DNA of 64,000 bases, taken from positions 1 through 64,000 of the IMG/VR virus record IMGVR_UViG_3300025466_001905, one strand, 5' to 3'. The position numbers were made by a program, and so were the translations under genes. The stretch comes from a virus. The notes under the pieces are model-generated. The model saw only the letters and a list, made by a program, of their open reading frames with translations. It was not told the DNA's origin and did no database searches. Shown one piece after another: positions 6,178-55,796 of this stretch (the first letter of the stretch is position 1; every line of letters begins with the position of its first letter).

Positions 6178-6206
6178 TTGACACATAATTCTTTTTGTGC
6201 TACAAT
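6178..6206 (+). promoter_or_regulatory. Sigma70-type promoter with extended -10
   Basis: Perfect -35 TTGACA (6178-6183), 17-base spacer and -10 TACAAT (6201-6206) preceded by TGC, an extended -10. It drives the lipoprotein gene at 6240. Almost the same promoter occurs at 14316, suggesting host RNA polymerase control. Confidence 0.85.
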
Positions 6207-6239
6207 TGGTACATCTTAATTTTTTTTAGAGATTGTATC

Positions 6240-9120: not shown

Positions 9121-9714
9121 CTATAGGTTCAATCGTATTCCAAAAATCAAACTGTAACGGTCTAGTGAACTAGAGTTTTTTCCAGTGTGCCAACTGGTGC
9201 TTAGATTGGCTGCAAAATAGCCAGAACCTGGGCCATTGGGTATGCGCAGAGGATTGTCGCCCTCAAATGATGTATAAAATGTAGTACTTTGGTCTGGATC
9301 ATCAGTGGGTGTAAAGTAAATCATACCTTGCACAACGTGTAATCTATCGTCGGTATGAATTCGTATGCTATAACCTGGCTTGTCAAGAGTATAGATTCCA
9401 TACATAAAGGTTTTTTCCATCATGCGTGATTGGCTAAGCCCCCAGTAGCCTGGAAATAACTTTTCTTGATACAGTTGATCAATGATTTGTGTTTTGAAAT
9501 CACTGTTGTCTACCCATTCTTGAATGCTCTTGAGTCGCGGATCTACAGGATTAATAAGGCGGTACCTGGTAGCAAAGCTGTTCTGCGCATAGCCAGCTTC
9601 ATCTGGTAACCATGTCTCCTGTTGCAGGGCCTGTAGAATTTGCTCATTGGTGCAGGATAATGCAACATTAAAAGTGTATATGTAATCTCTTTGTTTATCA
9701 AATGGTATTTTCAT
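9121..9714 (-). CDS. 2OG-Fe(II) oxygenase-like protein
   Basis: A 197-residue protein with the facial triad of 2-oxoglutarate/Fe(II) oxygenases: H120-x-D122 in IRIHTDDRLH and distal H176 in SWHTGK, with R186 as the likely 2OG carboxylate ligand. Such enzymes hydroxylate proteins, sugars or small molecules. It is divergently arranged with the halogenase operon, and both directions have a TATAAATA box in the palindrome at 9722-9733. The minus-strand box ends only 7 bases before ATG 9714 and no ribosome site is visible, so its mRNA would be nearly leaderless. Confidence 0.78.
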   Translation of the reverse strand: MKIPFDKQRDYIYTFNVALSCTNEQILQALQQETWLPDEAGYAQNSFATRYRLINPVDPRLKSIQEWVDNSDFKTQIIDQLYQEKLFPGYWGLSQSRMMEKTFMYGIYTLDKPGYSIRIHTDDRLHVVQGMIYFTPTDDPDQSTTFYTSFEGDNPLRIPNGPGSGYFAANLSTSWHTGKNSSSLDRYSLIFGIRLNL

Positions 9715-9721
9715 GTAAAAC

Positions 9722-9733
9722 TATTTATAAATA
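9722..9733. promoter_or_regulatory. Palindromic, possibly bidirectional late promoter
   Basis: TATTTATAAATA is a perfect palindrome that gives the T4 late box TATAAATA on both strands: 9726-9733 on plus, 9722-9729 on minus. It lies between divergent genes at 9714 and 9865. On the plus strand it continues CTGG, as at 1482. Confidence 0.6.
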
Positions 9734-9775
9734 CTGGGCAACGCCAGGTAGTTCTGACGTCGGACAAAATGACGC

Positions 9776-9804
9776 TTGACATAATGATGTCTTTACTGTA
9801 TTAT
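9776..9804 (+). promoter_or_regulatory. Sigma70-type promoter (TTGACA-N17-TATTAT)
   Basis: Perfect -35 TTGACA (9776-9781) and -10 TATTAT (9799-9804) at 17-base spacing. It precedes the halogenase ATG by 60 bases. Together with the TATAAATA box upstream, the operon could be read by both host-type and late polymerase. Confidence 0.8.
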
Positions 9805-9864
9805 TAATACAGAACGCCTACCGTGAGTAGAGTTCTTCTACAAGCAAAAAATAACAATACTATT

Positions 9865-11505
9865 ATGATTAAAAAAATTGCAATACTTGGCGGAGGATTT
9901 GCTGGCTGGTACACTGCAAGATCACTGCAACATTGTTTGCCTCAGGTTGAAATTGTGATCATTGACAGCTCACAGTATCCTACCATTGGAGTTGGCGAAG
10001 TTTTGGGCTTTGATGCACCTCTTAATTTTAACCGATTGCTTGGGCTAGATGACGATCAAGAAATCATGGCCGAAACTGGCGCAATTTATAAATTTGGTGT
10101 TCGAGGTATTAATTTTTACAAAGACAACTCACAGGTGGCCTGGGGCAAATTCCCTAATCTCAAAGTCAGTAGTCTTGTGAAATTTTACAATGGATTTGAT
10201 TATCCAGATTTTCAAGAGCCCTGGAATAAGTTGCCCGGAGACATTGGATTGTTTCCGGCTTGGTTGAGTATGTATAGCTCAAGCAAAACCTACGACGACA
10301 TGGTCATTGAAACCAGTGAACAAAATCATTTTTTAACCAATCCAGTAGCCCCATTTGATCGCAATAACAAACTGGTACTGAGAGAAAAGCAAGGATTCGC
10401 CTATCATATTGATGCAGAAAAAACCAGTGTGTTTTTGAAAAATCTTGTGTTAAGAAACAACGGCGACCAAAGAGTGACCTATATTACCAGTACCATGATT
10501 GATATTGCATGGAAAGATTCTGATCAAATTGATCACTTGATACTGGAAAATGGTAATAGGATTTCAGCTGATCTATTCATTGATGCATCTGGTTTACAAA
10601 AAGCCATTATGTCACGCAGCAACAATAAAAGTTGGAAATATCAAGGCGACGAATACTGCAATGCGGCCTGGGTTTTTCCGTCGGCATACACCAATCCAGA
10701 CCAAGAAATTATGGGTGCTAGCGAATTTCACGGCGAAGATTGGGGGTGGCGATTTTTGGTCAGACTGTATCATCGCATAGGCAATGGATACGTTTTCAAT
10801 GCCAACATGGTAGACCCTGCAGTGCCACTGGCCAGATTGCAAGCTGTAGTAGGACCTACTGCACTGGCCGAGCCACGACTAATAAAATGGAATCCAGGGC
10901 AGTACACCCAACCCTGGCAGGGAAATTTGCTGCCATTGGGCATGAGTGCAGTGTTTGTAGATCCGTTTGATGCGCCTACCTTTGAAGGGCATAGTCGTGC
11001 TCTAGAAGATCTTATTGATATAGTTAAAAAACAAGAACAAATAAGCGATCCTCAAAAGCAGTTCAATCACCTGAGAAGTTTGACCAGAGAAGAACGCGAT
11101 TTGAGATTGGATCTTACCTTTGGCATGAGTCAACGCAGTGGCCCTTTTTGGGATTCACGGCGCGAAATGGCTCGTAGACACAATTATCTTGACAAGATTA
11201 AAGCCATTGTGTTAGAACAACGCAAAGATTTAGAAGCCAGACTGAATTGGCATTGGCAACACCAATATGCAAGAACATGCATGGCCTCAAGTGTTGATAT
11301 GAGTACATGGGATTTTCCTCAACTGACATCACAAGATCGAGCTATGGCAGATGCATTTTTTGTTTACAATCGTGCTAGAAACCAATACATTGAAACGCAA
11401 CCTTGGCCCAATTACTCCCAGTGGTTGCGGCATAATCGTTTCAGTGGCTTGACTAATTCTCAAGTGTTACAAAAACTAAATCCATCATTATGTTTAAAAA
11501 ATTAA
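9865..11505 (+). CDS. Flavin-dependent (tryptophan-)halogenase-like enzyme
   Basis: A 546-residue protein with the layout of FAD-dependent halogenases. It has the FAD site GGGFAGW (9-15) and IGVGEVLGF (41-49). K76 in the IYKFGV segment lies where the family's catalytic lysine (Lys79 of PrnA) sits in an FKxGI-like context. It also has LFIDASGLQ and a C-terminal SAVFVDPFDAPTFEGHS in place of the usual SAGFVDPLE. A WxWxIP motif is not seen, so halogenation versus another FAD reaction is open. Viral relatives such as the cyanophage halogenase VirX1 are known. Start ATG 9865 fits the first beta strand. It overlaps the next gene by 16 bases. Confidence 0.8.
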   Translation: MIKKIAILGGGFAGWYTARSLQHCLPQVEIVIIDSSQYPTIGVGEVLGFDAPLNFNRLLGLDDDQEIMAETGAIYKFGVRGINFYKDNSQVAWGKFPNLKVSSLVKFYNGFDYPDFQEPWNKLPGDIGLFPAWLSMYSSSKTYDDMVIETSEQNHFLTNPVAPFDRNNKLVLREKQGFAYHIDAEKTSVFLKNLVLRNNGDQRVTYITSTMIDIAWKDSDQIDHLILENGNRISADLFIDASGLQKAIMSRSNNKSWKYQGDEYCNAAWVFPSAYTNPDQEIMGASEFHGEDWGWRFLVRLYHRIGNGYVFNANMVDPAVPLARLQAVVGPTALAEPRLIKWNPGQYTQPWQGNLLPLGMSAVFVDPFDAPTFEGHSRALEDLIDIVKKQEQISDPQKQFNHLRSLTREERDLRLDLTFGMSQRSGPFWDSRREMARRHNYLDKIKAIVLEQRKDLEARLNWHWQHQYARTCMASSVDMSTWDFPQLTSQDRAMADAFFVYNRARNQYIETQPWPNYSQWLRHNRFSGLTNSQVLQKLNPSLCLKN

Positions 11506-12401
11506 TTTTTACTTTACTGGTCACTGGTAATATATTTTGTCAGGCCAAAGAAAATGTCACAATCATTTACAGTTGGACTGCGGCCGACGGTCCAGCAAAT
11601 TACAGTCGAACTCTCATTGAAGAAGCCAACAAACTACAAAACAAGTATAATTTTATATTTGATACCAGACCCGGAGCTGGAGGGGCCTTGGCAGCAAATT
11701 ATGTTCGAACTACTCCCAACACGATATTGGCCACCGCATCTGCATTTTTTGTGCGACCAAATTTTTTCCCAAATGAAAGCTATGATGTCAAGGCTTTTAA
11801 AGAAATTTACCTGCAGTGTGTTGCACCAATGGCCATTACTTCGGTAAAGTACAAAAACTGGGCAGAAGTGCCCAAAGATAAAAGTCTCACCATTGGTGTC
11901 AGCGGGCTGGGCACCACCACTCATTTGTTTGCTACACAACTGCAAACTAGATATCCATTGTTAAATGTTATACCGTTTAAAAGCACCAGCGAATCACTGT
12001 TGTCAGTGGCCAGTGGTAATACTGATTTGCATGTGGCTTTTTTTGGCGAAATAGAAAATTGGGGCGCGGAAAATTCAAAATTTGGCAAGTTAAATGTGCT
12101 GGGTATTAGTGGTACCAGATCAATTCGAGGATTTGAAACATTGCAACAACAAGGTTTTGGCAATCGAGTAGCCAACATCAGTGTGCCATTTCATTTGATT
12201 GTTCCTGCTAATCTTCCAGAAAATAAATTCAATGACTGGCGTGGTATTTTACAACAAGCCGAACAGACTGCGGCAGTGAGAGAAACATACAACATTGATG
12301 CATGTGTGCCTGGTAATATAACTGACAAAGATTTAGATTCCTGGTACCAATTGCAAATATTGCAATGGAATCAGTTGAGTCACGGAGTAAAACTAGAATA
12401 A
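11490..12401 (+). CDS. Bug/TctC-family periplasmic solute-binding protein
   Basis: A 303-residue protein with a signal peptide (about 1-19, MFKKLIFTLLVTGNIFC) and the Bug/TctC signature RPGAGG at 60-65 followed by ALAANYV. The rest fits two alpha/beta lobes with IGVSGLGTTTH in the binding cleft. Bug proteins capture carboxylates or similar solutes in the periplasm and are hugely expanded in Burkholderiales. No TctA/TctB membrane partner is present. A stray binding protein inside a phage halogenase operon is unusual: it may feed a substrate to a host transporter, or bind the operon's product. Confidence 0.82.
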   Translation: MFKKLIFTLLVTGNIFCQAKENVTIIYSWTAADGPANYSRTLIEEANKLQNKYNFIFDTRPGAGGALAANYVRTTPNTILATASAFFVRPNFFPNESYDVKAFKEIYLQCVAPMAITSVKYKNWAEVPKDKSLTIGVSGLGTTTHLFATQLQTRYPLLNVIPFKSTSESLLSVASGNTDLHVAFFGEIENWGAENSKFGKLNVLGISGTRSIRGFETLQQQGFGNRVANISVPFHLIVPANLPENKFNDWRGILQQAEQTAAVRETYNIDACVPGNITDKDLDSWYQLQILQWNQLSHGVKLE

Positions 12402-12403
12402 GT

Positions 12404-13540
12404 ATGAGCTCATACCTATACCATAACAAAGGAATATATCAAAGCAATGGTAAATTCTTTCACAATAAGATCGATGCCATTCTAGAAGCCAATGCCAGTG
12501 GCACATGGGTAGAATGGGATTATCATCATGCTATTTTTTCTCAAAGCCAATGGGACATGAATCCTCCAGTGGATTTGGAAACATTGTACCTGGAACGAGC
12601 TCTGCAACTCAGAGAAGCTTATGATCATCTTGTGTTGTTTTACTCAGGTGGAGTAGACTCTTGGTATATCCTGAATACGTTTATCAAAAACAATATCCAT
12701 CTTGATGAAATTTACATGTATGGCCCGTTTGAAGCAGAAGAAAAAATGTATGATCAGTTGGGATTTGACCGCAGTCCTGGCTATTATACCAGAGAAATCA
12801 AACAAAGTTTGCCGTTGTTGAAAAAACTTGTGGCTGACAGAAATATCAAAATAAATGTGTTTGATTGGACACGTCACATCATTGAAGCTGCAGATGATCG
12901 TGATTGGTTTTACACCGCAGGAGTCCGATTTGATCCCACGTGCATGGTCAGATCAAAGTTTCATAAAATATTCCGAGAACACAGCGAACTCAGACACAAA
13001 GGAAAAAAAGTAGGATTTGTCTATGGAATTGACAAACCTAGGCTCATGCGAGATGATCAAAATATTTACTTTGCATTCTTAGATGTGATCTTTACCACCA
13101 GTGTGTTGCCTACCAATGATATCAATGGCGAGTTTTACGAAAATGATGAATTTTTTTACTGGACGCCAAATATGCCAGCACTGAGCATTAAAATGAGTCA
13201 TGTGGTTGTGGAGTTTTTGAAAAAAACCAATCAATTACATCTTATCAAACACATCAATAACATAGCAGCTTTTCACGACGAAGCCTATTACAAACAAGTA
13301 AATCAAGCTGTATTTCCAGATTGGAATCATAATACCTGGCAGGTTAAAAAGCCAACAGGAGCAATCTACAATGAACAAAGCAAATGGTTCTTAGATAGTA
13401 ATCTTGAAGCCAAACTCAAATGGGAATCCAGCATTTACGAACTAGAAAGACTATGCGGAAAAAAATGGTTCAATGACAATTCCATACGGAATGGTCTAAG
13501 AGGACACCTGAGTCCTTTTTACAAAATTTCCAACTATTGA
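12404..13540 (+). CDS. PP-loop (N-type) ATP pyrophosphatase, asparagine-synthetase-like
   Basis: A 378-residue protein with the PP-loop SGGVDS at residues 81-86, which binds the pyrophosphate of ATP in amidation, thiolation and ligation enzymes. A short preceding region lacks the glutamine-amidotransferase domain of asparagine synthetases, so ammonia or another amine would be supplied directly. Start ATG 12404 is two bases after the upstream stop. Earlier in-frame codons lie inside the Bug gene. Sitting between the halogenase/Bug pair and an oxygenase, it is likely to adenylate a carboxylate or carbonyl of the same substrate. Confidence 0.75.
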   Translation: MSSYLYHNKGIYQSNGKFFHNKIDAILEANASGTWVEWDYHHAIFSQSQWDMNPPVDLETLYLERALQLREAYDHLVLFYSGGVDSWYILNTFIKNNIHLDEIYMYGPFEAEEKMYDQLGFDRSPGYYTREIKQSLPLLKKLVADRNIKINVFDWTRHIIEAADDRDWFYTAGVRFDPTCMVRSKFHKIFREHSELRHKGKKVGFVYGIDKPRLMRDDQNIYFAFLDVIFTTSVLPTNDINGEFYENDEFFYWTPNMPALSIKMSHVVVEFLKKTNQLHLIKHINNIAAFHDEAYYKQVNQAVFPDWNHNTWQVKKPTGAIYNEQSKWFLDSNLEAKLKWESSIYELERLCGKKWFNDNSIRNGLRGHLSPFYKISNY

Positions 13541-13548
13541 AACACAAT

Positions 13549-14319
13549 ATGAAACAAGAACGCACAGGTACCTATCCATTGACAGTGTATGACCGTACAA
13601 TAGAGTCTGATCTACAACAACATGTCACAAATTTTTTACTAGACAGTGAATATTGTGTTAACTTTTATGATCACAGTCACAGTCTGTGGTATCCAAGAAC
13701 AGACAACTGGGTAACCCCAAGAACTCATCCCAGTCAACCAAGATTACCATTGGCCTGGGATGATCAAAGTTTAGAACATCGAGCCCCAGTGATTTACACA
13801 CTTTGGACTGCACTCAACAATGTGCTAGATAACCAATTTTGTATACAAGGTGTTCCTGAAGGCATGCCCAGATACATGACTGGAATTAGTCCGTTGAGTA
13901 GTCTGGACAGACCTGACGGAACTCCGGGATTGCCAAATTGTGCATGGCGTGTCTACGGCAGCGGCAACGAGCGCGAACTGAGAGCACATACCAAAAGCAT
14001 ACACAGAGATAGTCCCTTTTTGGATCGTGATGATTATTATAACTTGGTTTATTTTGCCAATTTAGAGTGGCACCCTCAATTCTACGGAGAAACTTTATTT
14101 CACGGCAATGATGCAGACTCAGGCGACTACACAGGTAGATTTGAAAAAGATCAATCTAGAAAATTTCCCATTGGTGAAGTTGAAAATACAGTAGCCATAA
14201 AACCTGGCAGATTTATGCTTTTTGATGCCAGATATATGCATCAACTAAAACCTGCGGCATATTATGCACCAAATATCATGGGCGTTGTATTTAGACTACA
14301 ACGTAAAACCCACAGTTGA
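13549..14319 (+). CDS. 2OG-Fe(II) oxygenase-like protein
   Basis: A 256-residue protein. H152-x-D154 in SIHRDSP and distal H231 in RYMHQL form the iron triad, and R249 in VVFRL is the probable 2OG anchor. FMLFDARYMHQ is typical of prolyl-hydroxylase-like folds. ATG 13549 is chosen over an in-frame TTG at 13537 that overlaps the preceding stop. It ends the halogenase operon: its stop overlaps the -35 of the MoxR promoter. Not an obvious duplicate of the oxygenases at 9121 or 55270. Confidence 0.78.
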   Translation: MKQERTGTYPLTVYDRTIESDLQQHVTNFLLDSEYCVNFYDHSHSLWYPRTDNWVTPRTHPSQPRLPLAWDDQSLEHRAPVIYTLWTALNNVLDNQFCIQGVPEGMPRYMTGISPLSSLDRPDGTPGLPNCAWRVYGSGNERELRAHTKSIHRDSPFLDRDDYYNLVYFANLEWHPQFYGETLFHGNDADSGDYTGRFEKDQSRKFPIGEVENTVAIKPGRFMLFDARYMHQLKPAAYYAPNIMGVVFRLQRKTHS

Positions 14320-14344
14320 CACAAAAATACAGTTTTGCTACAAT
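14316..14344 (+). promoter_or_regulatory. Sigma70-type promoter with extended -10
   Basis: TTGACA (14316-14321), 17 bases, TACAAT (14339-14344) preceded by TGC. The -35 overlaps the stop of the upstream gene. It drives the MoxR gene at 14392. Confidence 0.85.
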
Positions 14345-14391
14345 AGATATATAAACAAATTTTTTCACCCTTAACTTTAGGAACACAGCCC

Positions 14392-18969: not shown

Positions 18970-18998
18970 TTGACACAAAATTCACGATTTGCTATAAT
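18970..18998 (+). promoter_or_regulatory. Sigma70-type promoter with extended -10
   Basis: TTGACA (18970-18975), 17 bases, TATAAT (18993-18998) preceded by TGC. This is a near-consensus promoter for the VWA gene and closely resembles the MoxR promoter at 14316. Confidence 0.88.
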
Positions 18999-19023
18999 AA
19001 CTACATATACATAAAGGACTGTT

Positions 19024-26145: not shown

Positions 26146-26485
26146 ACAGATATATTATGCAACACTTTTCAGTGCAGTATCAATTAGTGCGCTATATACT
26201 TTTATTTCCTGGAGTCATATCCAAAAATGTTATGCCATGTTGTTTAAAAAAGACTATTGGACTGACTATAACACAATTGAATTTGTATCGTGGACGGCCA
26301 AAGCAATTATTATTATTCCAGGGTTAATATTTGGAATCAATATTTGGCAATTTTATTATGTAACTTTAATCACATCGGCAACACTGATCTGGGCCAGTCG
26401 TAAAAAGTCCTTACCTACCTTGGTAGCATTTAATACCATGTGGTTTTGGTTGAGTGCCATGGTACTGGCACAACATTTAATTTAA
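26135..26485 (+). CDS. Four-span membrane protein
   Basis: A 116-residue protein overlapping the previous gene by 11 bases. Four hydrophobic helices are visible: about 8-26, 50-68, 70-86 and 95-113, the second with AIIIIPGLIFGI. Short loops with Lys/Arg on alternating sides support an inner-membrane location. It precedes the sugar operon, but no transport motif is recognised. Confidence 0.72.
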   Translation: MTVEQIYYATLFSAVSISALYTFISWSHIQKCYAMLFKKDYWTDYNTIEFVSWTAKAIIIIPGLIFGINIWQFYYVTLITSATLIWASRKKSLPTLVAFNTMWFWLSAMVLAQHLI

Positions 26486-26493
26486 GGAAACAG

Positions 26494-27459
26494 ATGAATA
26501 TTTTAGTAACAGGCGGTTGTGGTTTGATTGGACACAACGTAGTACATCTATTAGAGCAACTAGGACACGAAGTCTCTGTCATAGACAATCGAACCACATA
26601 TGGATTGGTACCCGAGACTGAGATAAATTATCTCATGCATGAACGGTTAAAAAAGATCAAATCTCGATTGATCTACAGAGAAAATATCGAAACTGCGGTA
26701 ACTACAGATTATATTATAGACAAACACAAGCCTGATATTGTGGTACATATGGCCAGCTTTCCTAGACAAAAAGTTGTAAATGTAAATCCTGCCTGGGGCA
26801 GCAGAGTCATGATGGAAGGCCTCATCAATGTGCTTGAAAGTTCTCGCAAACACGGTGTTAAAAAAGTCGTGTACATTTCTAGTTCAATGGTGTATGGTGA
26901 CTTTTCTGATGATGTCTCAGAAGACGCAGTATGTAATCCAATTGGGCAGTACGGAATCATGAAACTTGCAGGAGAGCAACTTGTTAAAGATTACACTCGT
27001 CGTGGTTGTTTTGACCATGTTATTATACGCCCTAGTGCCGTGTATGGACCCCTTGATGTGGAAGACAGAGTGGTTGCCAAATTTATGCTCAGAGCTATGC
27101 GCGGAGAAACTCTTTGTGTAAACGGAGCCACAGAGACTTTGGATTTTACCTATGTTGACGATGCGGCAGCTGGTATTGTTGCTGCGGCCTTGAGTGCAAA
27201 TACCACAAACAAAACGTACAACATAACCAAAAGTCATAGTGTGAGCCTGGGTCAAGCTGCAAAAATGATAATAGATATTGTGGGATCGGGTAATATTGAA
27301 ATCAGAGACAAAGATCCCGACTTCCCCAGTCGTGGAGCATTGAATATTGATGCGGCTCGTAGAGATTTTGGATTTGATCCTTTAGTAGATGTTCGTGAAG
27401 GATTTGAAAATTACTACTCATGGTTAAAAAATTCTGTGTACTGGAACATACAACAATGA
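26494..27459 (+). CDS. NAD-dependent nucleotide-sugar epimerase/dehydratase
   Basis: A 321-residue extended short-chain dehydrogenase: GGCGLIG near residue 7 binds NAD, SSSMVYGD carries the catalytic Ser, YGIMK the Tyr-Lys pair, and VIIRPSAVYG is the substrate strand. These enzymes epimerise or dehydrate UDP-, dTDP- or GDP-sugars. Start ATG 26494 is chosen because the Rossmann strand begins there. First of four overlapping genes for sugar processing. Confidence 0.88.
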   Translation: MNILVTGGCGLIGHNVVHLLEQLGHEVSVIDNRTTYGLVPETEINYLMHERLKKIKSRLIYRENIETAVTTDYIIDKHKPDIVVHMASFPRQKVVNVNPAWGSRVMMEGLINVLESSRKHGVKKVVYISSSMVYGDFSDDVSEDAVCNPIGQYGIMKLAGEQLVKDYTRRGCFDHVIIRPSAVYGPLDVEDRVVAKFMLRAMRGETLCVNGATETLDFTYVDDAAAGIVAAALSANTTNKTYNITKSHSVSLGQAAKMIIDIVGSGNIEIRDKDPDFPSRGALNIDAARRDFGFDPLVDVREGFENYYSWLKNSVYWNIQQ

Positions 27460-28073
27460 AAATAGTAGTGATTAGTGCTCATCCAGATGATTTAGAAATT
27501 GGATGTGTTGGCACTTTGAAAAAATTTCAAGATCAAGGAGCTACCATCATCTCTGTTGTTACAGTGCGTCCGTCTGCAGAAGTTAATTCTCAAAGATCCC
27601 GGTCCGTTGTCGAAGATGAATTACATGCCAGTTACACTATGACTGGCTTTGATCTTAGAATTTTTGATACTGACTTGCACGACAACGGACGTCCCAATTT
27701 ACAAGTAGATAATGTCACAATGACCAAACTTTCATACTTGATTGACAGCTGTGATTTAGCAATTATTCCCAACAGTGAAGATTATCATCAAGATCACAGA
27801 GCTACAAATCATTTGGCATGGCCATTGTTACAGAAAAAAGCCAAAGAAGTGTGGACTATGAATTCATGGCCCTATTGCTATCAATACAGATCTAACCCCA
27901 ACATTTATCATGGCATCGACTGGCATGCAAAACAACAAGTATTGTCATGCTATAAAAGTTATATCAGTCAAGATAATCTTGATCAAATTCAAGCAATCAA
28001 TTGTGTGAACGGCAACAAGGCTGGAGTACCCCATGCTGAGTCATTCAATCTATTGTACAAGTATGTTAGATAA
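27456..28073 (+). CDS. PIG-L/LmbE-type deacetylase
   Basis: A 205-residue protein with AHPDDLEIG at 8-16 and DYHQDH in mid-protein. Together these give the zinc-binding set of PIG-L/LmbE N-acetylglucosaminyl deacetylases (AHPDD...H-x-x-D-H). It removes N-acetyl groups from amino sugars or related glycosides. ATG 27456 overlaps the epimerase stop. An N-terminal extension in the same frame would overlap it by 40 bases. Next to a DegT aminotransferase, it may unmask an amine. Confidence 0.85.
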   Translation: MKIVVISAHPDDLEIGCVGTLKKFQDQGATIISVVTVRPSAEVNSQRSRSVVEDELHASYTMTGFDLRIFDTDLHDNGRPNLQVDNVTMTKLSYLIDSCDLAIIPNSEDYHQDHRATNHLAWPLLQKKAKEVWTMNSWPYCYQYRSNPNIYHGIDWHAKQQVLSCYKSYISQDNLDQIQAINCVNGNKAGVPHAESFNLLYKYVR

Positions 28074-29109
28074 CATCAGTTTATTTCAAAACAATAGAAA
28101 CTGGGATCAAATTCGTAACGAAGTCATTGACCTGGTTGATACCTATCATGCACTGGGTATTGCTCAAAATGGCAGCCCAATGTTGGAACTTGAATCTGTA
28201 CTGGCCGGTAGATTTAATCGAAAACACTGTGTGACCACTGCATCATGCACAGATGCACTGGTTATTGCTTTGAATGCTTTGAACTTGCCAAAAAATTCCT
28301 GTGTTGCAGTTAGCAATTACACTTTTACCGCCACTGCGCATGCCATTGCACGAGCAGGTTATCAAGTTATCCCAGTGGATGTTGACAACAACTACTGTAT
28401 CAATTGTGAGTTGATTCCAGATGTATCAGCAGTGGTAGTGGTAGATTTGTTTGGTAATATGAGTCAGTGGAGCACTCTTGAAAAATTCAAAGTTCCAATT
28501 ATCAACGATGCAGCCCAAAGTATAGAAAGTCACAATGGGGTCAAATGGTCTGCGGAATATGGTCTGATCAGTTGTTTGAGTTTTAGTCCATCAAAAACCA
28601 TAAGTTCATGGGGTAGCGGTGGTGCATTGGTCACAGACAATGATGACATAGCCAATATTGCACGGAAACTAAGATTGCACGGCAAAATCAAAAATTCAGA
28701 TATTGCAGTTGATGCTGGGCTCAACAGCATGATGTCCAGTTTTGAAATCGCGTCAGTTCTAGTGGGTTTGCGATATTCCAGTAACTGGCAACAACGTAGG
28801 AAATCCATAGCTGATTACCTTATAAGCAATAGTACCCATGTTTCTGGCATGGACACCCAGCTTGAACAGCACACCTATCACAAATTGGTATTTCAGTCTT
28901 GGGATCGTAATAGCATAATTAAAAAAGCAAGAGACAATCAAATTGAGCTGGCAATACATTACAATATCACAGTCAACGACGAAACACTGTATCAAACTGC
29001 TGGCAGTTATCCTGCAAGCAATGATTTGAAGCAAATAAGTTTTACTGTGCCTAATCAACACACATTGACTGATGTAGAAGTAGAAAGAATAGCAAAGGTT
29101 TTAAAATGA
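28063..29109 (+). CDS. DegT/DnrJ/EryC1/StrS-family sugar aminotransferase
   Basis: A 348-residue PLP enzyme. The Schiff-base lysine is K178 in LSFSPSKTISSWGSGG, and PIINDAAQS supplies the aspartate that holds the cofactor nitrogen. The family moves an amino group from glutamate to a keto-sugar nucleotide. Start ATG 28063 overlaps the deacetylase by 11 bases. Unlike the related gene at 50017, it keeps the lysine, so it should aminate rather than dehydrate. Confidence 0.88.
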   Translation: MLDNISLFQNNRNWDQIRNEVIDLVDTYHALGIAQNGSPMLELESVLAGRFNRKHCVTTASCTDALVIALNALNLPKNSCVAVSNYTFTATAHAIARAGYQVIPVDVDNNYCINCELIPDVSAVVVVDLFGNMSQWSTLEKFKVPIINDAAQSIESHNGVKWSAEYGLISCLSFSPSKTISSWGSGGALVTDNDDIANIARKLRLHGKIKNSDIAVDAGLNSMMSSFEIASVLVGLRYSSNWQQRRKSIADYLISNSTHVSGMDTQLEQHTYHKLVFQSWDRNSIIKKARDNQIELAIHYNITVNDETLYQTAGSYPASNDLKQISFTVPNQHTLTDVEVERIAKVLK

Positions 29110-30068
29110 ATATTTTGATACTTGGTGGGCACGGATTTATTGGTCATCATACAACCAAACTTTTGACCAATCTAGGGCATAGTGTCAGTGTGGTGGACTT
29201 GCATCATCGCTACGGGGACTTTGAACTTTGGGAGTATAATCCTGTGCTTGCGCAACGAATCGAGTACATGGGTGATCACAAATTTTATCCTGGCAATGTG
29301 TCCAATAGAGAATTCATGGAATCTGTGTTTGATTCTGAATCTTTTGACGTGGTAATTGATTTGGCCACATATCCCAATGCCAAAATGGTCAAACGTAACA
29401 TAGTTGATGCTACGGAAAATATGATTACAGCCACTGCCATTGCACTGGAACTATGTGTCAAGTACAATGTCAGGCGGTTTGTATTGGCCAGTAGTTCTAT
29501 GGTTTATGGAGAATTTGGAGCTGACCCGCCGGATGAAAAGTCACAATGTAATCCTTTGACGTTGTATGGCAGTTATAAATTACAATGCGAACAAATGTGT
29601 AAGATATGGCACAAAGAACACGGCATTGAATACAGTATATTGAGACCAAGTGCACTGTATGGCATCAGAGACATGGTAGTACGTGTGATTAGCAAGATGA
29701 CTGTGAATGCTATTAAACTTGGAATCATGGAGGTCAATGGTCCCAACAACAAACTAGATTTTTCCTGGGTAGATGATGTGGCCAGTGCTTTTGCTACTGC
29801 AGCCACTGATCCAGCCTGTGCCAATCAGATTTTTAATTGTACCCGGGGAAATGGAAGAAAAATTATTGAAGCTGCTGAACTGATACAGGCCAGAATACCC
29901 AGTAAAATTTTACTAAAACCGCATGATGAATTTTATCCCAATAGAGATACTTTGAACAGCAGTCGTCTAAGAGAAATCACATCCTGGAATCCTACCATGA
30001 ATATTGACACTGGCATCAATTTGTATTTAGATTGGTTTTTAAAACAAGACTATATTACCAAATTTTAG
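29106..30068 (+). CDS. NAD-dependent epimerase/dehydratase
   Basis: A 320-residue extended SDR: GGHGFIGH (NAD turn), SSSMVYGE (Ser), YGSYK (Tyr-Lys) and RPSALYG. It resembles its neighbour at 26494 in all motifs but differs in the mid-region, so the two probably act on different intermediates of one pathway. It is the last gene of the operon, overlapping by four bases, and ends 14 bases inside the convergent repeat-protein gene. Confidence 0.87.
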   Translation: MNILILGGHGFIGHHTTKLLTNLGHSVSVVDLHHRYGDFELWEYNPVLAQRIEYMGDHKFYPGNVSNREFMESVFDSESFDVVIDLATYPNAKMVKRNIVDATENMITATAIALELCVKYNVRRFVLASSSMVYGEFGADPPDEKSQCNPLTLYGSYKLQCEQMCKIWHKEHGIEYSILRPSALYGIRDMVVRVISKMTVNAIKLGIMEVNGPNNKLDFSWVDDVASAFATAATDPACANQIFNCTRGNGRKIIEAAELIQARIPSKILLKPHDEFYPNRDTLNSSRLREITSWNPTMNIDTGINLYLDWFLKQDYITKF

Positions 30069-35520: not shown

Positions 35521-36506
35521 TGTATGCCATATCTGATATCAAAAAATTACATTTGGAAATTTCCAGTCTGTGCAATGCATCCTGTCCTTCATGTCCTAGA
35601 AATTTCCACGGATACCCATACAATCACGGCTATACTGAACGCAATCTAACGTTGGCTGACGTCAAACAAATTTTTTGTGTGGAATTTGTTCAACAACTGT
35701 CAGAGATACTGATCAATGGCAACTACGGCGATCTTGTAATGAATCCTGAAAGTTTGGATATCATTGAGTATTTCAGACAACACAACAGTCATGCACATAT
35801 TCCTATTTCAACCAATGGATCTGCCAGGAACAAACAATTTTGGCAACACTTGGCCAAACTAGACACCAAAGTTTATTTTTGCCTGGACGGTCTTGAAGAC
35901 ACACATAGTTTATACAGAGTCAATACCAATTTTGCCACAGTGATAAAAAATGCCAAGACTTACATTGATGCAGGCGGACATGCAGTATGGAAAATGATTC
36001 CGTTTGATCACAATAGGCACCAAATACAACAGGCTCAACAACTCAGCAGAGATTTAGGATTCAAAGATTTTATTGTAACAGATTATGGTCGCAACAACAC
36101 TCCAGTTTTTGATAAAAATGGCGATTTAACTCATGTGATTGGAGAACCAAATCAAACCAATTTTGCTGTGATGTTTTCGGCCTACAAAAGAAAGTTTGAC
36201 AACTGTTCTAACCTGTTTGATTCTACTCCAATCAAAGATCCTATAACCTGCGAAGCTCAAACAGACAAATCCATCTATGTATCCAGCACAGGAGAAGTAT
36301 TTCCCTGTTGTTACATCGGCGATACCATTGACATTGCCAAGAATTGGCAAATGAAAAAGCTTAAAAAAGAAAACAATGCATTGCACCACAGTTTGGAACA
36401 GTGTATCCAATGGTTCGCTGTTATTGAATCTTCTTGGTCTCAGCCCACATGGGCTCAAGGGCGCATGGTGGTTTGCAACAATGCTTGCGGCAGTAAAAAT
36501 TTATAG
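35520..36506 (+). CDS. Radical SAM/SPASM-type protein
   Basis: A 328-residue enzyme with C18-x3-C22-x2-C25 in SSLCNASCPSCPR and a cysteine-rich C-terminus (CEAQ...FPCCY...CIQW...VVCNNACG) as in SPASM domains that hold extra iron-sulfur clusters. SPASM enzymes modify peptides (sactipeptides, PqqE-like) or sugars. The start ATG overlaps the amidinotransferase stop (TGATG). The pair may act in sequence on one substrate. It ends six bases inside the convergent gene at 36501. Confidence 0.85.
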   Translation: MYAISDIKKLHLEISSLCNASCPSCPRNFHGYPYNHGYTERNLTLADVKQIFCVEFVQQLSEILINGNYGDLVMNPESLDIIEYFRQHNSHAHIPISTNGSARNKQFWQHLAKLDTKVYFCLDGLEDTHSLYRVNTNFATVIKNAKTYIDAGGHAVWKMIPFDHNRHQIQQAQQLSRDLGFKDFIVTDYGRNNTPVFDKNGDLTHVIGEPNQTNFAVMFSAYKRKFDNCSNLFDSTPIKDPITCEAQTDKSIYVSSTGEVFPCCYIGDTIDIAKNWQMKKLKKENNALHHSLEQCIQWFAVIESSWSQPTWAQGRMVVCNNACGSKNL

Positions 36507-37145
36507 ATCTATTTGAATACACTGTTGTTTGTTAGAGTGTGACAACAAGCTGTTGTGAACAGTGTGGGCTAGCCGCAGATTAAATTCTGGCGAAAGATGA
36601 TTGTGATACTGATGCATTAACTTTTTAATATCTTCTCTATCGCCCCATGTGTTGGGTTGCCCGCCTGCAGATGTAACTGCAATATGCAACAATGGTGTAT
36701 CAAATTTAATGCCTTCCAGTATGGAAAAATACTGCTGCGTATTTGGAAAACACTGCAAATGCACAACTTTTTTTCCTTGCATCAATTGGTTCAGCTCATA
36801 AAACCATTGTTGCATACACCAAGTTGTTACGTCGTCGGTTTGTATATAAGTATGCCATATTTTTTTGGCCAGATCCCCATCGCTGGAGGGAATACTAAAA
36901 ATAGGATTGCTGCTTAGTAATCTGTTTGGATCAGTATGGCAAAAAACAAAATATTCAGTTTCTTCAAACTTGTGAGATTTCATATAATCCAGTAGATGTT
37001 TACGTACTGGCCACCATCCTTGTCCAGCAAATCCATACCCTTCCAATTGTAAACTACAAAGCTCTGCTAGTTTTGCGGGCCAGTGTTTTTCAATGTTTTC
37101 TCTGTGAAAACAATAACTATCGCCTGCTATGTAAATGTAACTCAC
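36501..37145 (-). CDS. SGNH-hydrolase-like protein
   Basis: A 214-residue protein starting at GTG 37145 within the GTGA stop of the carbamoyltransferase. SYIYIAGDSYCFH has the GDS block with the putative nucleophile Ser10, followed by FVFCHTDPNR. A block V D-x-x-H is not clear, so it may be inactive or a distant esterase/acyltransferase. It terminates the 22-kb minus-strand polycistron. Confidence 0.68.
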   Translation of the reverse strand: MSYIYIAGDSYCFHRENIEKHWPAKLAELCSLQLEGYGFAGQGWWPVRKHLLDYMKSHKFEETEYFVFCHTDPNRLLSSNPIFSIPSSDGDLAKKIWHTYIQTDDVTTWCMQQWFYELNQLMQGKKVVHLQCFPNTQQYFSILEGIKFDTPLLHIAVTSAGGQPNTWGDREDIKKLMHQYHNHLSPEFNLRLAHTVHNSLLSHSNKQQCIQIDL

Positions 37146-38641
37146 GAACACACCTTAACATTGTACAACTGTTCAAATTGATCTGCATCTCTACGGTCAT
37201 TGATCATGGGCTCACCTCGTATGTTAAGACTAGTATTCAACAACATAGGACACCCAGTGATCACAAACCATTTTTCCAATAGTTCTCTTATGCCGGATCT
37301 GTCAGGCGGCACAGTCTGAATCCTACTAGTTCCATCCACATGAACAATAGCAGGAAATAAATCAGGGCGCCGACAACGGCCTACAATTTGCATATACCTA
37401 CTGTCACTCCAGCCGCTGGGCATATCAAAGTACTGATCAACAAGTTCTTCCAATATAACAGGAGCAAACGGTCTAAATTTTTGTCTACGTTTGATTTCAT
37501 TCACAAGGTCCTTTATTTTGTCTCCTCTTGGGTCTGCCAGCAAACTTCTATTTCCTAGTGCTCGCGGCCCAAACTCTGCTCGACCACTAGCCACCCCAAC
37601 AATATGATCACTAAGAAGCCGATCAAGTATATCATTAGTTGGATAGCAGCCATCGATATTATGCCCAAGAGAAGCACTGTGCCAATTAATAGGTCCGCCA
37701 TATACCAGTGCTGCGGCGCCAAGGCTAGACCCAGCATCACCAGGATTAGGCATAATCCAAATGTTTTCAAAATATTTCCCCAAGTTTCTATTAGCCAGGC
37801 AGTTGAGTGCAACACCGCCCATGTAAACCAAGTTAGAGCTCCAACAAAAATCTCTAGCTCTCTTCATTACATTATATATCAAGTTTTCAGCTAGGTCTTG
37901 ACTCATTGCAGCAATATCTTCGTTCTCTGCATGTGACATAAAATCAGCGTCAACGCCAATGTGCAAGTTTTGTTTGAATGTTACAGCATGTTCGTCTTCC
38001 ACCAGACGTCTTTTCAGCAAGTCTCCAAGGCCTTGCCCACCGTAGGCACTCATGCCCATCATGATGTATTCTTCTTCGCCGGCTTTGAGTCCCACACGAT
38101 CAGTCATTGCTGAGTAAAACAGTCCTATGCTGTGCGGATAGCGTTGCCCCCAAAGTTTGGTATACTGTGCTCGACCGTTGACATATTCTGCGCCCCAAAT
38201 TGTTATGGTATCTAGTTCACCAATGGCATCTATAACAACAACTGTGGCCTTTGTGTAGGGGCTGGTTTGGAATCCGGCGGCAGCGTGCGATAAATGATGG
38301 GACATGAATCTCCGAGGGCATCGTAGTAGTCGTTCCTGATGAACAGATACAGATAAATGTTTACGCAAATACTGATCAAGAGTGAAATTTTTAAAATCAA
38401 AGGCTTCATGATATTGTCCTGACTGTAGTTGTTGTAATTTTTTGATCCAAGGACGCTCGTAGTAGGCCACAAGATCTGGATTGCCATAACTTAATGCGTC
38501 TGATACTAGTGCATCATTTATATGGGCATCATTCTTGATCTTGCTGTAACGTTCTGCATGTCCAGCAAATAAAATGTCACCGTTGTCAATCAATGACACT
38601 GCAGCATCATGAAATCCAGCACTTATACCTAGTATCTTCAT
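37142..38641 (-). CDS. Carbamoyltransferase (NodU/CmcH/TobZ family)
   Basis: A 499-residue protein. MKILGISAGFHDAAVSLI and HHLSHA (115-120) mark the Kae1-like domain that makes the carbamoyl-adenylate, GGVALNC is the second metal/nucleotide site, and GRAEFGPRALGNRSLLADPR opens the C-terminal YrdC-like transfer domain. It should transfer a carbamoyl group from carbamoyl phosphate to a hydroxyl of a sugar or natural product. The family is normally found in antibiotic and Nod-factor clusters. Start ATG overlaps the stop of the basic peptide gene. Confidence 0.92.
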   Translation of the reverse strand: MKILGISAGFHDAAVSLIDNGDILFAGHAERYSKIKNDAHINDALVSDALSYGNPDLVAYYERPWIKKLQQLQSGQYHEAFDFKNFTLDQYLRKHLSVSVHQERLLRCPRRFMSHHLSHAAAGFQTSPYTKATVVVIDAIGELDTITIWGAEYVNGRAQYTKLWGQRYPHSIGLFYSAMTDRVGLKAGEEEYIMMGMSAYGGQGLGDLLKRRLVEDEHAVTFKQNLHIGVDADFMSHAENEDIAAMSQDLAENLIYNVMKRARDFCWSSNLVYMGGVALNCLANRNLGKYFENIWIMPNPGDAGSSLGAAALVYGGPINWHSASLGHNIDGCYPTNDILDRLLSDHIVGVASGRAEFGPRALGNRSLLADPRGDKIKDLVNEIKRRQKFRPFAPVILEELVDQYFDMPSGWSDSRYMQIVGRCRRPDLFPAIVHVDGTSRIQTVPPDRSGIRELLEKWFVITGCPMLLNTSLNIRGEPMINDRRDADQFEQLYNVKVCS

Positions 38642-38739
38642 TTATAGATAAAAGGATCTCGTTTGCGCAGTTCTTTTAATTTTTTTCTATAACGTATTTC
38701 CAACTGTATACGTGCTATTAGTTTCTTAATCCAATTCAT
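38638..38739 (-). CDS. Tiny basic peptide (33 residues)
   Basis: ATG 38737-38739 to TGA, overlapping both neighbours. The product, MNWIKKLIARIQLEIRYRKK then LKELRKRDPFIYK, is an amphipathic basic helix. It matches a short peptide I recall beside carbamoyltransferase-type genes in phages. It might act as a nucleic-acid or membrane binder. Its codon-coupled position argues it is translated. Confidence 0.65.
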   Translation of the reverse strand: MNWIKKLIARIQLEIRYRKKLKELRKRDPFIYK

Positions 38740-39448
38740 TGTTTTTTTCCTTTTGCCTAGCAGCCAGTTCAGGGTCATAGTAAGGAACCATACAAAATGT
38801 AATAGTACCTTTGTCCACCGTGGTCCCCCGTCGAAATGCCATGACTGTTTCTATATTATAGTAATTATACCTAGCGTCAATGGGTTGATCCCATTTGAGA
38901 CCAGATCCCACTGCAGTACCATTGTTTATCTGATAGTTAGGTTCCACAGAACCAGCAAATTCATGCCAGTCAGAATTCCAATCCAAAAGATAAGGCAGTA
39001 TTATTGCACGCCATCCTGGCGCCATGCGAGCACGCCATGGCCAAAATAACAAACGAAATTGATATTCGTAAGGACTTGAATCTAGCAGTCCATGCGAATC
39101 TGGTTGCATGGTCCACGGTCCCTGAGATCGATTGGCCCACTTTGTACCGTGTAACATTTCAGGGTGCAAGAATCCACGATTAAAGTAGGTATCGTAGCCA
39201 TCCAGATTTTCTGGTAACGGCATAGTATAGCCTATGTTGAGCAGGCCACGAAAGCCCAAGCAGTGTCGTATGGTATGCTGCAATCCAAAACCTTCTGGCA
39301 AATAATCTTTGATATTGCCTTTGAGATTTTTATACCAGCCAGGCAAGAAATTTTTCACTGGTTGTGGCGCAGCACAATCAAGATACTGTATGTCAGGGTC
39401 TGACGAGTATTCCCATGCAAGATAATCAGTGACTTGAACTGTAGTCAT
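38726..39448 (-). CDS. Hypothetical protein (DUF6065-like pattern)
   Basis: A 240-residue aromatic protein: LPGWYKNL, then TIRHCLGFRGLLNIGYTMPLP and a Trp-rich C-terminal half. The Cys-and-Gly pattern around RHCLGF and the GY...PL motif reminds me of DUF6065 proteins found beside oxygenases and sugar genes. That resemblance is from memory and uncertain. It overlaps the peptide gene by 14 bases. Function unknown. Confidence 0.62.
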   Translation of the reverse strand: MTTVQVTDYLAWEYSSDPDIQYLDCAAPQPVKNFLPGWYKNLKGNIKDYLPEGFGLQHTIRHCLGFRGLLNIGYTMPLPENLDGYDTYFNRGFLHPEMLHGTKWANRSQGPWTMQPDSHGLLDSSPYEYQFRLLFWPWRARMAPGWRAIILPYLLDWNSDWHEFAGSVEPNYQINNGTAVGSGLKWDQPIDARYNYYNIETVMAFRRGTTVDKGTITFCMVPYYDPELAARQKEKNNELD

Positions 39449-40499
39449 ATCCAGGAGTTAGTAAATTGATCTGTTGTTGATAGTAATCAGCATCTGTCCA
39501 GGCATAATCATATGTTGCACAGACATTGCCAGCTTCTATTTTGTATATGTCCAGATACCCACTGAGTATGGGCCACACTTGGCGAAAATCAGTGGTGCCA
39601 AAACTGGATTGTAGTTGCACTTGACCCACTGGGTGATAACCATAGTTGTATTCTGGATTTTGTGCATCAAATCTATTACGATGCAACCAGTCTCTGAATC
39701 CTGACAGCCGTTTGGTGTGCCAAGGGTGAGGACCATGATATACCACATCCTGAGCCCACTCAATATCAAATTCACCTGTGTAGTATTTCAAATGTGTAAT
39801 TGTATCACATACTGCTTGATCAATATCCAGCCCTTTTTCATCCTGATAGACTTCAAACAGAGTTTTTCCAATCTGTGCCCAGTGTAAGTAAACTTCTCCA
39901 AATTTTCTATCATATCTGGTTTCGTCAAATGTTGTCTTGTATTCCTGAGGAAACTCTAATCTTGGTGCATTCAAAAATGTAGTGATTTGACTGGGACGTA
40001 CCCAGTCCGGATCGTCGGCTTGTTTTCGCTGACTCAACATGAGACTTTCGGCTTCATGGCATAGATTATTCAACTGCCTTATAGCAAATTTGGTGTTGTA
40101 ATCTGCACGTTTATACCATTCACTCAATCCCCATACTGTGCCTTGAAGATGTTCAAAATGATTATGCAAATGATTCATTAAATCTTGATTGGGCTCAAGT
40201 CCGTGGCGCAATGCGTTTGGACTGAATATTTCATTTATGACATATTCGTTGACAAAAAACTCATTGATGGTTTTTTTGGCCCAGTTTAACTCTTTGCAAA
40301 TATAGTTGAGATTTCTTAGGCTATTTGGAAAACCCAAAAAACAAAAGTTTTTTTCCAAGTATAGATTTCGTTTTAACAAATCTTGCAAGGCATGGTACCA
40401 ATTGTGTGCCATGGGTGCATCATTGACAGCTATTTCATAGTCAATGGTGTCTTGTTTGTTCAACGGATTGCGTAAAATTACCTTAACTGATTGAATCAT
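39426..40499 (-). CDS. Phage hypothetical protein, 357 residues
   Basis: A 357-residue protein, mostly helical in the first two thirds (LYLEKNFCFLGFPNS, NFCFL) and rich in His, Trp and Tyr towards the end. It has no known catalytic motif. It is embedded between a DUF6065-like gene and the first twitch-type radical SAM gene with overlaps on both sides, so a partner role in that system is possible. Confidence 0.65.
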   Translation of the reverse strand: MIQSVKVILRNPLNKQDTIDYEIAVNDAPMAHNWYHALQDLLKRNLYLEKNFCFLGFPNSLRNLNYICKELNWAKKTINEFFVNEYVINEIFSPNALRHGLEPNQDLMNHLHNHFEHLQGTVWGLSEWYKRADYNTKFAIRQLNNLCHEAESLMLSQRKQADDPDWVRPSQITTFLNAPRLEFPQEYKTTFDETRYDRKFGEVYLHWAQIGKTLFEVYQDEKGLDIDQAVCDTITHLKYYTGEFDIEWAQDVVYHGPHPWHTKRLSGFRDWLHRNRFDAQNPEYNYGYHPVGQVQLQSSFGTTDFRQVWPILSGYLDIYKIEAGNVCATYDYAWTDADYYQQQINLLTPGYDYSSSH

Positions 40500-41772
40500 A
40501 CCACTCCAATATCTCGGGTCTTGATCTTAATATGTCTCTTAGAGTATACCGATCTTGCCTTATTCTTTCTAATTCTATCACTCTAAATTTGCCTTTGAGC
40601 AGTGCAGATTGATATTGGTCTGGCCACTGCTCTTCAAACGTGGGTCGTGTTTTTAATTGCTCAAGTACATCTTTGATTGATCCACTGGTGACCAGTGCCA
40701 GTTGGTCCAACCAAGGATCCAACAATGTTCTTGGCAGTGCCAATGGACTCATAATAATGTCAGGACTAAAACTGAATATTACTTTGGCCAGTATATCCAC
40801 ATCTAACTCTAAGGCCAATGCCTGCATGTTTTCTACTTCAAACATGCCAGGTAATGTGAGTGTAAAGTCCAAGCGCATGTTGCGTCTGTTGCGGCTGAAC
40901 TTTAGACCAGTTCGAAAATTCTGCAAAAACTGTTGGTAATCAAGCCCGGTGCGTATGTACTCACCAATGGCACCAGTGCCGTCAATACTGGCACAGATTT
41001 GCCAGTCTCTCACATGAGACAAAATATCTCTGAACAGGTGTGTTTGTCGATATTCAATCCGGCTTAGATTGGTGTTGTACCGAGCATAAACTTTGGCGCC
41101 ATCTCCAAGATCAACTATGCGTTTCATGTAGCGCCAATGTTGCTCAAACATTAGTGGCTCACCACCAACCCAATATATTTCTTCCACACGGTGCTGCTCC
41201 ACTGCTTCACTGAATTCTTGTTCAATTTGACTGTCTTGAAACTGACTAATGCTAGACCGTACTTCGGGTTTCATCCAGTTATTTTTTGGATTATCCCAAT
41301 GAATCATGTTGTGTTGGCGTTGTTCGCTTTCCCATGCACTGCTCAGCATATCACCACAGGTACGACATTTGAAATTACACAGATTACTGAATCTATAGTC
41401 CCAGCTCACAGGCTGCATGGTAGTGTAGCCAGTTTTGTCAGTGGTATTGATCAACTCTGGATATTTGTGTGCAAAAAGTTGATTGAAATAACTACGATAT
41501 ACGTCTGTATTCAACAATTTATTATTACACACCTGACATTCAGACAGAGTTTCGCCGGCCATCATTCGCCTGCGTACCGAACGCATGTGATCACTGTTCC
41601 AGTGTTGCTCCAGGGTGCTGGGTTTGTAAATTCCAGTTCCGGAACTGGTATCTATGTACTGTTCAAAACTTTGAGCCGGTTCTCTACTGGCACAACACAT
41701 ACGTCTTTCAGTCTGGGGACTGAGGTATGTGTGTGTCCAGGGTGCCATGCATAATGTTTCAGGTTTTAACAT
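40483..41772 (-). CDS. Twitch/SPASM-like radical SAM protein 1
   Basis: A 429-residue enzyme with C132-x3-C136-x2-C139 in SNLCNFKCRTCG. Before it are C8 (LCMAPW), C26-C27 (RRMCCAS) and C79-x2-C82 (ECQVC). Three Cys blocks ahead of the SAM cluster suggest an N-terminal auxiliary cluster domain. IYWVGGEPLM follows, the GGEP motif of SAM binding. Of the five paralogues, it belongs to the CC-type group with 41759 and 43656. Substrate unknown. Confidence 0.85.
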   Translation of the reverse strand: MLKPETLCMAPWTHTYLSPQTERRMCCASREPAQSFEQYIDTSSGTGIYKPSTLEQHWNSDHMRSVRRRMMAGETLSECQVCNNKLLNTDVYRSYFNQLFAHKYPELINTTDKTGYTTMQPVSWDYRFSNLCNFKCRTCGDMLSSAWESEQRQHNMIHWDNPKNNWMKPEVRSSISQFQDSQIEQEFSEAVEQHRVEEIYWVGGEPLMFEQHWRYMKRIVDLGDGAKVYARYNTNLSRIEYRQTHLFRDILSHVRDWQICASIDGTGAIGEYIRTGLDYQQFLQNFRTGLKFSRNRRNMRLDFTLTLPGMFEVENMQALALELDVDILAKVIFSFSPDIIMSPLALPRTLLDPWLDQLALVTSGSIKDVLEQLKTRPTFEEQWPDQYQSALLKGKFRVIELERIRQDRYTLRDILRSRPEILEWYDSIS

Positions 41773-47991: not shown

Positions 47992-47994
47992 AGA

Positions 47995-53541: not shown

Positions 53542-53545
53542 GTTT

Positions 53546-54634: not shown

Positions 54635-54635
54635 T

Positions 54636-55794: not shown

Positions 55795-55796
55795 TT

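Follow-up and report, generated by a model that had tools for sequence, protein, structure and literature searches.

Cyanophages encode PstS, a periplasmic solute-binding protein that is thought to supply phosphate to the permease of the host. The Bug/TctC proteins, such as Bug27 and Bug69 of Bordetella, are the receptors of the tripartite tricarboxylate transporters. VirX1 is a cyanophage enzyme, and cyanophages carry tryptophan-halogenase-like genes (PHROG 2928). PP-loop ATP pyrophosphatases, including LarE, GMP synthetase and the asparagine and carbapenam synthetases, share an SGGxDS motif and a Rossmann-like core. At the RNA level, the manA and wcaG motifs and riboswitches are conserved helices in the 5' leader ahead of functionally related genes. 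The locus described here recalls each of these systems. It lies in the window, i.e. the whole stretch of 64,000 nucleotides (nt) that was analysed, which belongs to the 78,157-base virus record IMGVR_UViG_3300025466_001905, likely a fragment. Four genes, designated HAL, BUG, PPL and OG, follow a structured RNA and probably form with it an accessory uptake-and-modification operon of large phages. The structure of the RNA and its association with transport genes were observed across related phage contigs. The four genes are the following, where FAD stands for flavin adenine dinucleotide, 2OG for 2-oxoglutarate and ORF for open reading frame.

9865 to 11505, plus strand: HAL, a PF04820 FAD protein of a phage subclade with the signature GWRF and DP[FYW]DAPTF
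11490 to 12401, plus strand: BUG, a TctC/Bug-type solute-binding protein with an N-terminal signal peptide, type I subfamily
12404 to 13540, plus strand: PPL, a PP-loop (SGGVDS) protein without Pfam family or glutaminase domain (mechanical ORF from 12365)
13549 to 14319, plus strand: OG, a 2OG-Fe(II)-oxygenase-like protein with a conserved HxD...H...R (mechanical ORF from 13537)

The genes are open frames arranged head to tail with short overlaps (16 nt between HAL and BUG) or gaps of a few bases. Homologs suggest that PPL starts at 12404, 2 bases past the BUG stop, and OG at 13549. The next TTGACA/TATTAT-type site matching at 11 of 12 positions is found at 14316-14344, beyond OG, and for this reason the four genes look like one unit. 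The coordinates, frames and strand thus bear out the overlapping or nearly touching genes described in the first-pass annotation, and the operon that it proposed holds.

A conserved structured RNA behind a late promoter box

A conserved element of about 108 nt was found by comparing the DNA upstream of related loci (numbered with the prefix L below). Its components in the window are listed here.

9726 to 9733, plus strand: T4-type late promoter box TATAAATA, just before the RNA
9738 to 9845, plus strand: structured RNA (covariance model R1, 98.4 bits, E 4.5e-22), presumed 5' end of the operon transcript
9741 to 9760, plus strand: helix P1, 9741-9748 with 9753-9760, one C.A mismatch; 6 of 7 pairs changed on both sides
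9761 to 9823, plus strand: long-range helix between CGG 9761-9763 and CCG 9821-9823, by which the P3/P4 junction is closed; 99.4% paired
9778 to 9791, plus strand: helix P3, GACAT 9778-9782 with ATGTC 9787-9791; 4 of 5 pairs covary
9797 to 9811, plus strand: helix P4, 9797-9801 with 9807-9811; 5 of 5 pairs covary
9827 to 9841, plus strand: helix P5, GTAGA 9827-9831 with TCTAC 9837-9841, followed by AGC; 4 of 4 counted pairs covary, 82% paired

Model R1 was built from 14 copies. Scanning IMG/VR with a DNA pattern brought up 110 contigs; most matches in them score 48-117 bits, and 84 distinct copies resulted. Weak matches (at most 31.8 bits) before structural genes in L074, L094, L112, L146, L154 and L157 were excluded as probable false positives. 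In a structural alignment of 79 rows, the final structure has 95.0% of its cells paired, 21 of 24 pairs changed on both sides and 385 double-change cells. Its covariation score is 0.611, whereas shuffling gives 0.201 and slid versions give no more than 0.112; the alignment was fitted to a related structure and its counts favour that structure. The first MAFFT alignment, made of eight copies and fitted to no structure, showed double changes in 11 of 23 pairs. The P1 extension and the CGG/CCG helix are part of the final structure and are absent from the model; the latter helix displays CAG/CUG and CGA/UCG exchanges among relatives. Since the folding stability of single sequences is not unusual (z from -1.5 to +0.8), the case for the RNA rests on covariation. 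An initial P2 helix (CGTCG with CGACG) was abandoned: double changes were never seen in it, and one of its pairs failed in 18 of 65 cells. Its former strand pairs into P1 instead, with an A-U/G-C exchange. The RNA had no match in Rfam, searched with the window at the gathering threshold, with the elements of the window and L013 to E 5 and with nine more loci to E 0.5, and blastn against cultured phages and plasmids returned nothing of note.

The late box that had been noticed on first reading does exist. TAAATA occurs within 22 nt upstream of the RNA in 81 of the 84 copies and exactly 5-6 nt before its first base in 70; by chance, a slot of two positions would be filled at a rate of about 0.0007. 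This distance is that of a T4-type late promoter to its start, and a late transcript should accordingly begin with the RNA. Because it usually occurs once per contig, even where contigs reach 354 kb, the RNA is no general late leader; the 78-kb record likewise has a single copy. The TATTTATAAATA sequence is palindromic, and a minus-strand TATAAATA therefore also faces the gene at 9121-9714 (minus strand). This gene, divergent from the operon across TATTTATAAATA, carries by eye a 2OG-oxygenase-like pattern (IHTDD ... WHTG ... RYSLIF) and has a weak PHROGs label of minor coat protein.

A TTGACA promoter of its own had also been attributed to the operon. The string TTGACA-17-TATTAT is present (11 of 12 positions; -35 at 9776-9781, -10 at 9799-9804), but it is better explained as part of the conserved RNA structure. 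P3 contains most of the supposed -35 box and P4 overlaps the supposed -10 box, so that both hexamers sit in covarying helices, and the pair is kept in only 29 of the 84 copies and missing from 55. It was accordingly rejected as the main sigma-70 promoter; in the copies that keep it, the pair could still play a double role as promoter and RNA helix. Elsewhere in the window, a repeated TTGACACAAAA...TTTGCTACAATA element (14316-14357, 18970-19011 and 6178-6219) resembles a sigma-70-type promoter family.

Among the genes that follow the RNA, those for binding and transport proteins are strongly over-represented. The 72 distinct first genes include, by Pfam, 24 TctC, 15 DctP, 2 NMT1, 2 TctA and 4 porin genes; further ones are 2 TauD, 4 hexapeptide transferase, 3 fatty-acid desaturase and 2 DUF2061 genes, HAL and also the PP-loop gene. 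A recurring membrane-protein family was seen as first gene in L077, L091, L100, L129 and L131, probably corresponding to the three fatty-acid-desaturase members of Pfam. In 34 contigs totalling about 5.15 Mb, with 31 TctC genes and 31 RNA copies of at least 48 bits, 15 of the 31 TctC genes lie at most 3 kb downstream of the RNA on the same strand (sorted by hand), against about 0.3 expected. Some of these contigs were chosen for BUG; where only the RNA pattern had led to the contig, 9 of 20 TctC genes lie within 3 kb downstream. Relatives of PPL follow within 6 kb in 37 of the 84 copies. The loci differ in the amount of DNA available, and these association counts are lower bounds.

Like a riboswitch, the RNA is a conserved, covarying structure in a 5' leader, and it shares with manA- and wcaG-type leaders the position of conserved helices before functionally related genes. 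It differs from them by the lack of an Rfam match, the late phage promoter at +1 and the association with transport genes. Since first genes of different substrate types share the same RNA, it is more likely to respond to a common signal, or to act in stability or translation, than to sense one transported substrate. An anti-Shine-Dalgarno stretch (AGCTCYT...AGGAG) occurs in a subset of copies only and was thus discarded as a general mechanism. The RNA might also not regulate these genes at all and be a stabilising leader, or a separate small RNA marking a hot spot where accessory genes are swapped. The exact start at the late box, the variety of first genes and the usual single copy, even in contigs of 320-354 kb, are consistent with this explanation. 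It is nonetheless rather unlikely: no terminator is evident after P5, the first start codon comes about 20 nt past the RNA in the window and usually 20-75 nt past it in relatives, and the bias of the first genes remains to be accounted for.

The four proteins

HAL certainly belongs, by its sequence, to the PF04820 family (181 bits, Pfam cut-off 21). VirX1 (PDB 6qgm, E 5e-29) is its second-best match in PDB, among other tryptophan halogenases. The two share the PF04820 fold, the FAD motif, the catalytic lysine and carriage by tailed phages; VirX1 and the PHROG 2928 proteins are only about 21-28% identical to HAL and have different neighbour genes. The nearest relatives of HAL form with it a phage subclade of five members (L002, L020/21, L022 and L023, at 42-57% identity), others being near 20%. 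The FAD-binding GxGxxG is present as an invariant GGGFAG, and the catalytic lysine (K79 in PrnA) as K76, invariant in 11 sequences. The motifs WxWxIP and Fx.Px.Sx.G (or FX[DE]PX[EFL]) are listed as typical of halogenases, although some true halogenases lack WxWxIP, and mutation of the key Glu to Asp leaves a low activity (review PMC8407142). In HAL the first motif reads WGWRFL; across the subclade it is WGWRF or HGWRF, with GWRF in all. Neither form of the second motif occurs in any of the five members, L022 lacking the leading F as well. The corresponding loop of HAL, FVDPFDAPT, has Ser replaced by Ala, Gly by Thr and the key Glu by Asp, EPLEST-G being replaced in the subclade by DP[FYW]DAPTF. 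Its Pro falls in the loop whose backbone binds chloride in PrnA.

Because the halogenase motifs are replaced in the whole subclade, halogenation by HAL appears doubtful and is not supported by its sequence. The first-pass annotation was right about the protein family; the halogenase activity that it assumed is not supported. The pathway that it proposed, in which an aromatic compound is halogenated by the FAD enzyme and then passes on to the ligase and the oxygenase, retains in its favour the fold, GxGxxG, K76, the kinship with VirX1 and a DP motif whose Asp stands at the key Glu position, where the reviewed mutant keeps some activity (PMC8407142). With WxWxIP and both forms of the tunnel motif replaced subclade-wide and a Pro in the presumed chloride-binding loop, it is unlikely. 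Membership of PF04820 alone is insufficient to name such an enzyme a halogenase. A search of IMG/VR with HAL as single protein gave nothing of note, and no real relative of the subclade or of PPL was found in bacterial genomes, where only two peptide patterns were scanned for each.

PPL (378 amino acids) lacks any Pfam domain and the N-terminal glutaminase domain of asparagine synthetase B, to which it could not be assigned. SGGxDS is found in 64 of 68 relatives. Its structural model, with a predicted local distance difference test (pLDDT) of 77, matches PP-loop enzymes through the core only, LarE being the best (E 5e-4); over the full length, the structures closest to it are of unnamed phage proteins. 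PPL thus shares motif and core with the PP-loop ATP pyrophosphatases and differs from them by the missing glutaminase domain, a C-terminal half of its own and TM-scores of 0.24-0.35. OG, also without real Pfam match, has H156-x-D158, H235 and R253 invariant in ten sequences, i.e. the HxD...H iron triad and the Arg for 2OG. Its model is of low confidence (pLDDT 60) and its best structural match is prolyl-4-hydroxylase (E 7e-5). By motif and model match, the PP-loop and 2OG identities given on first reading are retained.

The identification of BUG as a Bug solute-binding protein was confirmed: it scores 39 bits for PF03401 (TctC; cut-off 27), is related to periplasmic TctC-type proteins in PDB (E 1e-10) and has TctC motifs and, read by eye, a signal-peptide-like hydrophobic N-terminus, MFKKLIFTLLVTGNIFCQA. 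It resembles the Bordetella receptors in family, signal peptide and ligand-loop motifs, while the phage proteins diverge fast, are replaced between phages and come from records without any TctA found. Like PstS of cyanophages it would be a phage-encoded periplasmic binding protein; the proteins found here differ in being of TctC/Bug, DctP or TauA type and in being tied to a PP-loop enzyme and a structured leader RNA. Two BUG subfamilies are mutually only about 20-27% identical and the adjoining PPL genes keep 67-84% identity, from which it appears that the binding protein is exchanged between phages while the PP-loop gene stays. The partner permease TctA (PF01970) was absent from all 16 contigs searched, that of the window phage and 15 related ones; TctA is the first gene at two other RNA-led loci. 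None of 17 DctP-like proteins directly behind the RNA (e.g. L044 4687-5631, L047 9119-10060, L111, L145 and L098) has a signal peptide. These missing permeases and signal peptides would suit binding proteins that are decoys, sponges or exclusion factors rather than uptake receptors. Such a function seems quite improbable given that the BUG types retain signal peptide and TctC motifs and that RNA copies also lead porin genes and the two TctA genes.

Recurrence of the gene set

Searches of viral contigs with PPL, HAL and OG yielded 12, 16 and 13 loci, respectively, all in uncultured large-phage contigs. L002 carries HAL (57% identity), BUG, PPL (81%) and OG (73%) in the order of the window, with the RNA between HAL and BUG. 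The order BUG-PPL is found in L003-L006, L013, L015 and L017, PPL-OG-BUG in L040 and L041, BUG-PPL-OG in L042/43, and PPL-OG followed by a DctP-like gene and BUG in L044. HAL directly adjoins the PP-loop gene in L022 (solute-binding protein-PPL-HAL) and L023 (solute-binding protein-permease-PPL-HAL), OG does so in L002, L008/9, L040, L041, L044 and L047, and Bug genes in most loci. The four-gene order that was to be sought elsewhere thus recurs in L002 and its pairs in several lineages, and because of this recurrence the arrangement is beyond chance. Mosaicism is usual in phage genomes, and many relatives lack HAL and OG, but a chance assembly of unrelated accessory genes, disfavoured by the repeated adjacency of HAL, OG and Bug genes to the PP-loop gene, is very improbable.

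A theme of sulfonate metabolism (TauA/TauC in L023, TauE-like in L002 and a hint of 3'-phosphoadenosine-5'-phosphosulfate reductase for PPL) was dropped since most loci lack it. Adjacent peroxiredoxin-like (AhpC-like) and AhpD-like genes were seen by eye near the module in L017 (4527-5581), L036, L038 and L039. The window also holds ten tRNA genes and other gene clusters. Two epimerases, a PIG-L deacetylase and a DegT aminotransferase are consecutive at 26440-30068 (plus strand). A long run at 36501-55803 (minus strand) with several radical SAM/SPASM proteins, a carbamoyltransferase, a GDP-mannose dehydratase, a DegT aminotransferase, an AMP-binding enzyme and a hexapeptide transferase resembles a sugar or natural-product cluster.

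No description of the RNA or of the four-gene combination was found in the open-access literature, in agreement with the first reading that it is undescribed. The pair of 2OG oxygenase and PF04820 genes alone is not new, because one pelagiphage has such an overlapping pair; PF04820 genes are common in cyanophages. Phage uptake genes and phage leader RNAs are each of known kinds, and it is the combination, the PP-loop family and the RNA family that appear new.

A proposed role in phage-directed uptake

For the uptake-and-modification operon favoured here, we infer late timing, regulation in cis, docking to a host permease, the substrate and the enzyme chemistry. The transcript would start at the T4-type late promoter and its first 108 nt or so would fold into P1, a three-way junction (CGG/CCG helix, P3 and P4) and P5. 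The RNA would most likely set in cis the timing or strength of translation of the operon, or the stability of the transcript. BUG would be exported and capture a small carboxylate-type molecule; because no TctA was found in the phage or the 15 related contigs, it would depend on a permease of the host. The PP-loop protein would use ATP to activate the substrate, which would also be oxidised by the 2OG and FAD enzymes. Of the halogenated or oxidised product suggested earlier, only the oxidation is kept, as a conjectural step.

Several points weigh against this proposal. No conserved expression platform is apparent, the anti-Shine-Dalgarno stretch being confined to a subset. The first genes are very diverse and include cytosolic ones (HAL, PP-loop, TauD, hexapeptide transferases), contrary to what would be expected of a sensor for a single substrate. 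The missing permease is a further point, short of proof as the contigs are fragments, and the DctP-like proteins without signal peptides may not act in uptake. Finally, PPL and OG were assigned to the PP-loop and 2OG enzymes by motifs and by model matches that are weak.

A betaproteobacterial host is likely for the RNA-bearing phage group as a whole, in view of two facts: TctC receptors are most abundant in Betaproteobacteria, and three RNA-bearing contigs have transfer-messenger RNA genes of betaproteobacterial or permuted type (L141 1984-2337, plus strand; L142 3337-3764, minus strand; L166 383-652, minus strand), those of L141 and L142 sitting upstream of the structured RNA. The leader could, as a tentative extension that we hold to be a serious possibility, represent a new class of regulatory RNA, acting as a riboswitch or as a switch under the control of a protein. 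Large betaproteobacterial phages would use it to turn on, late in infection, exchangeable operons for nutrient uptake that have the processing step by the PP-loop enzyme in common. Phage genes that alter the uptake of the host are known mainly for phosphate; here, exchangeable binding proteins for other compounds stand behind one conserved RNA in numerous large phages and are linked to a PP-loop enzyme family that has no name. If this RNA is a switch, the control of host nutrition by phages would gain a regulatory layer.

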